NCBI RefSeq assembly: GCF_031312535.1
Contig: NZ_CP133594.1
Coordinates: forward strand, 124,001-188,000
Reading direction: 5' to 3'
Source of the DNA: Methanolobus mangrovi
GTDB lineage: Archaea; Halobacteriota; Methanosarcinia; Methanosarcinales; Methanosarcinaceae
DNA length: 64,000 nt
How positions within the stretch are numbered: the stretch's first letter is position 1; the number at the start of each line of letters is the position of its first letter. The notes beneath the pieces were generated by a model, which had not been told where the DNA came from, did not search any database, and worked only from the letters and a program-made list of their open reading frames with translations. Positions 35,749-52,948 of this stretch are shown piece after piece. The translations under genes and the position numbers were made by a program.

Positions 35749-35886
35749 GTAATTCCTCCGAATAAATGTGATTTGATGATAGATGTAATTCTAATGATGT
35801 AATGTAATTGTTCAACAAGCTGTCATAATATAATTCTGAAATAAGGTATGCACTGATAAATTGGCTCTCTATACTATGCATATCTC

Positions 35887-36060
35887 TATATAAAGAAATC
35901 GGTTAATCATTTCAGGCCGACAATTGTTTTAACTCAATTGTTTCACTTCCTGATTGTGAATTACAAAAAGTATTTTAGTGATAAATCCTTCTCTAGGATA
36001 TTCACAATTGTAAATACATTATCACTAAAATGTCTTCCTGACATAAGGGGCAATTTGTAT
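35887..36060 (+). promoter_or_regulatory. thiM promoter and interleaved inverted repeats in the leader
   Basis: A strong TATA box TATATAAAG (35888-35896) predicts a start near 35920 and a leader of ~140 bases. In it are two perfect inverted repeats that interleave: ATTGTGAA (35953-35960) with TTCACAAT (36001-36008), and ATTTTAGTGATAA (35972-35984) with TTATCACTAAAAT (36019-36031). The order a-b-a'-b' is that of an H-type pseudoknot or of mutually exclusive hairpins. Two direct CAATTGTTT copies occur at 35922-35945. I see no TPP-riboswitch (THI-box) consensus. The spot is right for thiamine-responsive control. Confidence 0.5.
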
Positions 36061-36846
36061 ATGAATCTTCCACTGCAAAAAATAAGGGAAACAAAACCAC
36101 TGGTACACCATATAACCAACTGGGTAACGATCTATGACTGTGCGAACATGACGAGGGCCTTCGGTGCCCTTCCAGTAATGGCCCATGCACCCCAGGAGGC
36201 TGCAGATATGACGGGTATCTCCTCGGCACTTGTGCTCAATATCGGTACTCTCACTGAAGAGCTGATCAATGCAATGCTCATATCGGCAAAAGCTGCAAAT
36301 GAGAAGAGTGTTCCTGTAGTTCTTGATGCTGTAGGTGTGGGTGCCACACCTTTCCGTGATGAGATGGCAACAAAGATACTTGACTCCGTAAGAATTGATA
36401 TAATCAAAGGCAATTATTCCGAGATTGCAAAGCTGGCAGGTGAAAATGCCCAGACCAGAGGTGTTGAAGCAACAGCAATTGATGCTGACCCGAAGCAGGT
36501 TGCAAAAGAGTTTGCAAGAACAAGGTCATGTGTTGTTGTAATGACAGGTAAGGAAGACATAATCAGCGATGGAGAAAGGACCTTTGTTGTTAAGAACGGA
36601 CACGAGTCCATGGGCCTGATCGTAGGTACAGGATGTATGGCAGCATCTGTCATAGGTTCCTTCGCTGCTGTCAATGCAGATTACTGCGTTGCAGCAAAGG
36701 ATGCATTGTGCTATTTTGGAATAGCCGGAGAACAGGCAGCTGAAAAGTCCGCAGGTCCGGGAACTTTCAAGATGTATTTCTATGACGAGGCATTTAACCT
36801 TTCAGATGAAAAAGTACAGTCCATGATGAATTTTGAAGAATGCTGA
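36061..36846 (+). CDS. thiM: Hydroxyethylthiazole kinase ThiM
   Basis: 261 residues. Phosphorylates the thiazole alcohol for thiamine salvage. Signature regions: [20 protein letters not shown] (N-terminal substrate site), [42 protein letters not shown] and [16 protein letters not shown] with the catalytic Cys. The open frame starts at 35938, but ATG 36061 gives the family's N-terminus and follows AAGGGG (36045-36050). thiE starts within 10 bases of its stop, so the two form an operon. Confidence 0.95.
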
Positions 36847-36853
36847 GTTGAGT

Positions 36854-37498
36854 ATGGAACATAAAAGATCATTGTTGAAACTCATAGACTTCTACCTTGT
36901 GACTGATTCCGTTTTGTCTAAAAAAGGAACACTGTCAGATGTAGAGAATGCAGTTACTGCAGGTTGCAGGATAGTCCAGTACAGGGAAAAATCCAGAAGC
37001 ACAAAGGATATGATCCTTGAAGCATCGCAAATCAAAACCCTGTGTGGCAGTGAGGCAATATTCCTGGTGAATGACCGGGTGGATGTTGCTCTTGCTGTTG
37101 ATGCCGATGGTGTTCATATAGGTCAGGATGACATGCATATATCAACTGCACGGAATCTTCTGGGTCCTGATAAGATAATCGGTCTTACGGTCCACAATGT
37201 TGAAGAGGCTCTTGAAGCAGAACGGAATGGTGCTGATTACGTGGGTCTGGGTCCTATCTTTGACACCACCACCAAAAACGATGCAGGTGATGGTATCGGT
37301 CCGGAGAGCATCAGAGCTGTAAAAGATGCCATAGACGTTCCTATCGTTGCTATAGGTGGCATTAATAAACAGAACTGTGAAAGTGTTATTGTAGGTGGTT
37401 CGGACAGCCTTGTAGCAATTTCTGCGGTAGTGTGCAGTGATGATGTTGCCAGAGAAACAAAGGATTTCATTGACATTATAAAGCAGTTCAAGGAATAA
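36854..37498 (+). CDS. thiE: Thiamine-phosphate synthase ThiE
   Basis: 214 residues. Joins HMP-PP and thiazole phosphate. Motifs: FYLVTDS near the N-terminus, [16 protein letters not shown] (QYREK), [43 protein letters not shown] (GPxF.T.TK), and [13 protein letters not shown] 36854 is preferred; TTG 36833 overlaps the thiM stop. Followed by a bidirectional terminator. Confidence 0.96.
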
Positions 37499-51687: not shown

Positions 51688-51850
51688 TCGGGGTTACCAT
51701 GCGGGAGTGGAACCTTATAAACATCAGCTTCCGAGTTGATGTTCCAGATTATAGCCTGATAAGAGAAGAATCCTAATACCAACAAACTTTGCCTTATCAG
51801 GCTATAATTCCTAATCTCTGGGCAGACGCTTTAGCCTACGTAAGCATTTT
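51688..51850 (+). ncRNA. Candidate structured RNA, module 1 (two hairpins)
   Basis: AACATCA (51720-51726) pairs with TGATGTT (51737-51743), and ATTATAGCCTGATAAG (51748-51763) pairs perfectly over 16 bp with CTTATCAGGCTATAAT (51793-51808). CTATATAT at 51661-51668 is a TATA box with a predicted start near 51690, just before GCGGGAGTGG. Strand is inferred from that box. No known RNA family recognised. Confidence 0.35.
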
Positions 51851-52886: not shown

Positions 52887-52915
52887 GAGATAACTATATC
52901 CCATAATATAATTGC
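52887..52915 (+). repeat. Outer flank: extra terminal-repeat tip plus left target-site duplication
   Basis: GAGATAACTATATCCCA (52887-52903) is identical to the tip of the right terminal repeat (60921-60937), and TAATATAATTGC (52904-52915) is the left copy of the 12-bp direct repeat. Together with the next T, 30 bases are identical to 60921-60950. The extra tip outside the duplication may be a scar of an earlier tandem insertion. Confidence 0.8.
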
Positions 52916-52948
52916 TGGGATATAGTTATCTCCAAAAAACCGAACTTC
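52916..52948 (+). repeat. Left terminal inverted repeat of the element
   Basis: 33 bp, perfect match to the reverse complement of 60905-60937. Its first 17 bases also pair with 52887-52903 across the 12-base duplication, giving a perfect 17-bp hairpin at this end. Confidence 0.88.

Follow-up and report, generated by a model that had tools for sequence, protein, structure and literature searches.

The DNA ahead of thiM in Methanolobus mangrovi (GCF_031312535.1) contains two interleaved inverted repeats, and the question it raises is whether they shape an RNA or mark a site for a protein. The window analysed here is a stretch of 64 kb (NZ_CP133594.1, 124,001-188,000, forward strand), in which the arms follow each other in the order a-b-a'-b'. 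The first-pass annotation had located both stems correctly and had given b its right length of 13 bp, but arm a (ATTGTGAAT, 35953-35961, pairing with ATTCACAAT, 36000-36008) is 9 bp long and not 8. When the 146-nt leader was shuffled 1000 times with its dinucleotides preserved, one shuffle contained a perfect arm of at least 13 bp with a loop of at most 60, and about 6% contained an arm of at least 9 bp, so that b stands above local chance while a alone does not. Three arms as long as b (at least 13 bp), b included, are present in the window. Two perfect inverted repeats of greater length lie at 52887-52932 (17-bp arms, loop 12) and 51748-51808 (16-bp arms, loop 29).

In one of the two readings that the annotation offered, the stems may form a pseudoknot or a switch in a long thiM leader; such an RNA would act in cis and sense a thiamine-related ligand. 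The window leader does fold better than its shuffles (z -4.7), chiefly through stem b, and three pairs of this stem are changed on both sides among nine relatives. However, in the nine aligned Methanolobus leaders, stem a pairs at 4-9 of its 9 positions, with just 4-5 positions paired in six of the nine species, and stem b at 4-13 of 13. Covariation between the thiM upstream regions of relatives, which the annotation had proposed as a check, did not exceed controls for either stem; measured against shuffles of the nine leaders it was not clearly elevated (shuffles reaching the observed value: paired cells 36/500, double-change pairs 230/500, score 28/500). Nor is the fold common to relatives, since four of their leaders gave z values of +0.6, -0.4, -2.3 and +0.3 against -4.7 for the window. 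A pseudoknot or switch was rejected on these grounds: stems broken in most relatives, covariation not above controls and a fold that is not shared. TPP riboswitches are common controllers of bacterial thiM and thiE genes. The genes are the same here, but the Rfam match is absent: cmscan of the leader and its surroundings produced no match above the gathering threshold, and a permissive search (E up to 10) returned only unrelated chance matches in the leader. The annotation had seen no TPP riboswitch, and Rfam agrees; this and the other Rfam families were discarded as candidates.

The length of the supposed leader, 140 bases, had been derived from the stretch TATATAAA (35887-35894). On the minus strand this stretch reads AACCGATTTnTTTATATA and makes up a BRE-TATA promoter directed at rps3ae, the divergent gene. 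We searched 27 Methanolobus genomes with the DNA of positions 35749-35912, and the rps3ae promoter stretch was retained even where thiM is distant, about 13.6 kb away in one genome (G005) and about 4.6 kb in another (G019). The promoter from which the long leader was deduced is thus that of rps3ae. A likelier thiM promoter lies further downstream (Table 1). At thiM loci situated away from rps3ae (L006, L017, L019, L020), a block resembling ACAAAA followed by one resembling TATTTTA is found about 22 bp ahead of a 16-bp palindrome, and the same BRE/TATA-like geometry is repeated at the regulator gene described below, at nadA and at the SepCysS gene. In M. psychrophilus R15, promoters lie about 19-22 nt from the transcription start and the median 5' UTR is 55 nt (PMC5378194). 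Applied to thiM, this spacing likely gives a leader of about 60 nt with a predicted start near 36000 (35998-36003). With such a start, arms a and b would belong to the promoter and fall outside the RNA. An RNA switch whose 5' arms are upstream of the likely start, whose covariation is no better than that of controls and whose fold the leaders of relatives do not share is, in our judgement, very unlikely.

Table 1. Features of the thiM upstream region and operon (positions of the window).
Feature	Position	Strand	Remarks
rps3ae promoter, earlier taken for that of thiM (AACCGATTTCTTTATATA on the minus strand)	35887-35904	-	kept in 26/27 Methanolobus genomes, thiM adjacent or not
Degenerate second operator, right half ATTGTGAAT = arm a (35953-35961)	35946-35961		7.3 bits, fourth best match of the window
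Likely thiM promoter, BRE-like ACAAAAAG (35963-35970) and TATA-like TATTTTAG (35971-35978)	35963-35978	+	conserved block in Methanolobus thiM loci
Near-palindrome AAGTATTT-N7-AAATCCTT across the TATA-like box	35968-35990		intact form conserved in rps3ae-linked Methanolobus thiM loci
Arm b, ATTTTAGTGATAA	35972-35984	+	overlaps the TATA-like box
Predicted thiM transcription start	35998-36003	+	from M. psychrophilus R15 spacing (PMC5378194)
Predicted palindromic operator, ATTCACAATTGTAAAT	36000-36015		16 bp, 7/8 position pairs symmetric; overlaps the predicted thiM start
Arm b', TTATCACTAAAAT	36019-36031	+	found in nearest relatives only
Ribosome-binding-site-like AAGGGG ahead of thiM	36045-36050	+	purine-rich stretch kept among aligned Methanolobus leaders
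thiM, hydroxyethylthiazole kinase	36061-36846	+	PF02110 and NF006830/TIGR00694 above cut-off
thiE, thiamine phosphate synthase	36854-37498	+	starts at the first ATG of the frame that TTG 36833 opens; over 36833-37498, PF02581 and TIGR00693 exceed their cut-offs

Arm a' coincides with the left half of the 16-bp palindrome, which is located about 22 bp downstream of the thiM TATA-like box. Its relation to other sites was measured with a weight matrix made from 19 distinct sites, all of them upstream of the gene for P0002, a helix-turn-helix protein encoded far from the window; thiM sites were not used. This matrix placed position 36000 at the top of the 64-kb window with 19.1 bits, the next match reaching 9.3, where 0.03 such matches are expected per 64 kb. 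Of 25 Methanolobus thiM loci, 11 have the site at 17 bits or more, and it also occurs at one thiM locus of Methanomethylovorans and at three of Methanohalophilus, where the flanks are unrelated. A site acting as DNA would be expected to survive in this way amid unrelated flanks. The palindrome has been lost from a M. vulcani-like clade (L009-L011, L013-L015), from L021-L025 and from the Methanosarcina thiM loci; such losses in several clades indicate that it is not essential there and that the place of thiM in the regulon is labile. The loci L021-L025, a M. psychrophilus-like clade, carry another conserved thiM leader (GCATGCGTATGATTAATACATGATAAG...) in place of the operator block.

The annotation had also offered a pair of protein operators as an alternative to RNA. 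One site of this proposal stands, as a' belongs to the conserved palindrome and a to a degenerate half-copy, but b and b' form no recognisable operator pair. The half-copy is notable by its position only, because about 7 matches at the 7.3-bit level are expected per 64 kb (4 were counted in the window), and similar remnants were seen in L005 and L007 only. The 13-bp pair b/b' is a lineage-specific feature that an operator at 36000 leaves unexplained.

The TATA-like box itself is covered by a near-palindrome, AAGTATTT-N7-AAATACTT (35968-35990), which could be the site of a second regulator specific to thiM. The M. vulcani-like clade, whose operator has decayed, preserves this near-palindrome perfectly. 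Nevertheless, its genome-wide frequency is about that of a reversed-pattern control and it is found mainly at thiM, so it may be no more than the constrained promoter of close species; the form AAGTATTT-N7-AAATCCTT likewise showed no genome-wide enrichment over control. A second regulon built on this pattern was rejected for the same reasons, and a second thiM regulator appears improbable to us.

The operator palindrome is shared with a set of sulfur genes, ahead of which sites with at most two mismatches were found in the window genome. Pattern searches with a reversed-pattern control gave 140 sites genus-wide against 51 for the reversed pattern. Of 25 Methanolobus P0002 loci, 24 have one or more sites within 330 bp ahead of the gene, and in most genomes the distance is 51-68 bp. 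In a survey of 16 loci from 15 genomes, each holding all or some of the units, the site recurred at [SepCysS - ThiF/UbaA-like E1 - MoaE], [P0002 - cysteine desulfurase - FdhD], [tRNA-Cys - SAMP2-like], [NadA] and [TusA]. The palindrome also fronts [TusA2 - DsrE - IscS - IscU] in the window genome and is near the TusA2 gene in several relatives. Assignment of SepCysS is secure (TIGR02539, 416.7 bits for a cut-off of 365.25), and a 'GcvPA-like' label for the target followed by E1 and MoaE was dropped in favour of this family profile. Among Methanosarcina orthologues of P0002, a site is present upstream and several have a CysK-like protein downstream, while the neighbour of Methanohalophilus orthologues is a SepCysS-like or sulfhydrylase-like protein (names read from translations in both cases).

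One predicted target is a tRNA gene. The operator is followed after 10 bp by tRNA-Cys(GCA) in the window genome (L237:10121-10218 = G000:C1:1443120-1443217) and after 2 bp in G005 (L240:8699-8788), and in both genomes this tRNA gene is just upstream of the SAMP2-like gene. Five near-identical tRNA-Cys copies exist in the window genome in total. Extra tRNA-Cys(GCA) genes were noticed in the loci L313 (G002:C6), L314 (G017:C81) and L315 (G002:C5). In G017 and G002 such genes directly precede TusA genes, and G002 has four further copies in its SepCysS/regulator region, so that additional tRNA-Cys genes recur near the regulon. The operators before two of the targets are paired: ahead of SepCysS two copies lie 21 bp, or two helical turns, apart (L237:7257-7293), and ahead of TusA1 two overlapping copies are spaced by 14 bp (L034:1487-1516). 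These spacings suggest cooperative binding. According to Mukai et al. (2017, PMC5424206), clade VII SepCysS genes often have tRNA-Cys and genes of sulfur metabolism as neighbours. That grouping is alike, but the regulator, the operator and the link to thiM are absent from those loci as described (PMC5424206).

The occurrence of the site before its own gene makes P0002 the candidate protein. It is 107 aa long, with an XRE-type helix-turn-helix (G000:C1:1440426-1440749), and in a profile search it passed the Pfam cut-off for HTH_3 only; no NCBIfam family matched, and neither did the ThiN, Rrf2 or ArsR family models of Pfam. In 31 orthologues, the residues C5, C87, C90 and C100 are invariant and a PSA(V/I)SQY segment is shared; four conserved cysteines suggest that the protein could bind a cluster or a metal. 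An AlphaFold2 model of moderate confidence (pLDDT 72) has five helices, and nothing significant was returned by a PDB sequence search or by Foldseek with this model. Of the 393 genomes in the phylum sample, 233 gave profile matches, those to a paralogue being counted as well.

This paralogue is about 40% identical to P0002, has 120 aa, is cysteine-rich and is found throughout Methanolobus, directly behind IscS-like and NifU-like (IscS-IscU) genes (L238:2897-3259). The operator could belong to the same regulon and yet be bound by another protein such as this one, which shares the helix-turn-helix segment and cysteines of P0002 and adjoins Fe-S assembly genes. Its own locus (L238), however, has no site above 11 bits, whereas 24 of 25 P0002 loci carry a site. 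The paralogue is moreover present in genomes that have no P0002 orthologue, and there the thiM site is lost (G014) or weakened to 12.4 bits (G013, assembly without the orthologue). For P0002 as the binding protein, the joint absence of orthologue and site in G014 counts in favour, and the site that G013 retains counts against. We regard binding by another protein as unlikely.

The annotation had stated that archaeal thiamine genes are usually under ThiR, a repressor combining a helix-turn-helix with a ThiN domain, and a protein of this kind might use the palindrome. ThiR operators are reportedly palindromic and front thiamine genes, according to work in J Bacteriol (2017). A palindromic operator near thiamine genes and a helix-turn-helix are indeed shared with the present case, but P0002 lacks the ThiN effector domain and its regulon differs, the remaining targets of the site being cysteine and sulfur genes. 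In the genome, ThiN was detected only once, as the C-terminal part of a ThiD-ThiN enzyme that shows no helix-turn-helix match, and since a profile search of the genome revealed no helix-turn-helix-ThiN fusion, ThiR was rejected as candidate. Control by ThiR does not fit a regulator that is not ThiR-like and a regulon of cysteine and sulfur metabolism, and we give it hardly any credence.

Position 36000-36015 is probably the DNA operator of an autoregulated, sulfur-responsive repressor, which is likely P0002, and not part of an RNA; thiM would then be included in a cysteine/sulfur regulon. The conservation of the site, its shared occurrence, its position in promoters and the conserved cysteines were all computed directly; we infer binding, the identity of the regulator, repression and the effector. 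P0002 would be the cognate protein and would act on its own gene through the upstream palindrome. The sites of thiM, nadA, SepCysS and the regulator gene fall between the TATA-like box and about +16, which favours repression by blocking recruitment of polymerase: P0002 probably bars RNA polymerase from its targets. The palindrome was found where a repressor operator should be, at the TATA box or start of its targets and before the gene of the regulator itself. Release of P0002 would follow a change in sulfur, cysteine or Fe-S/Zn ligand state; judging from its cysteines, occupancy of the operator may be set by sulfur, cysteine, redox or Fe-S status. The targets would be tRNA-dependent cysteine synthesis and sulfur trafficking, with thiazole salvage (thiM-thiE) as an outlying member, and the 9-bp interleaved arm a would be an operator half-site repeated upstream of the promoter. 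It is plausible that thiazole salvage spares sulfur when sulfur is short.

IscR and SufR are small cysteine-bearing helix-turn-helix repressors of Fe-S genes, cysteine desulfurase genes and their own genes. P0002 resembles them in size, cysteines, type of target and autoregulation, but it is of the HTH_3 (XRE) type and not Rrf2 or ArsR, and cluster binding by P0002 is putative. Bacterial regulators such as CysB and CymR join cysteine synthesis and sulfur supply in one regulon; a joint cysteine-sulfur regulon is alike here, but the protein families differ, and SepCysS and a tRNA-Cys gene are included. In open-licence papers, we found no account of P0002 or its operator and, for Methanosarcinaceae, no regulator described for either cysteine synthesis or sulfur trafficking; the control of thiamine genes in methanogens seems undescribed. 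A helix-turn-helix regulator with a palindrome is of a familiar kind; this member and its regulon appear new.

We consider it reasonably likely that P0002 and its orthologues are a cysteine/sulfur-status regulator of Methanosarcinaceae, using four cysteines for metal or Fe-S sensing and one palindrome for SepCysS, an extra tRNA-Cys, sulfur carriers, Fe-S assembly, NAD synthesis and thiazole salvage. The RNA-switch reading of this AT-rich archaeal promoter, though plausible, is very likely wrong, and the present analysis corrects it. The analysis also yields an operator that can be tested, a candidate protein and a list of targets joining tRNA-made cysteine, tRNA-Cys, sulfur carriers, Fe-S assembly and thiazole salvage. 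If the proposal is true, a cysteine pathway that runs on tRNA and the gene for its tRNA would be under one operator.
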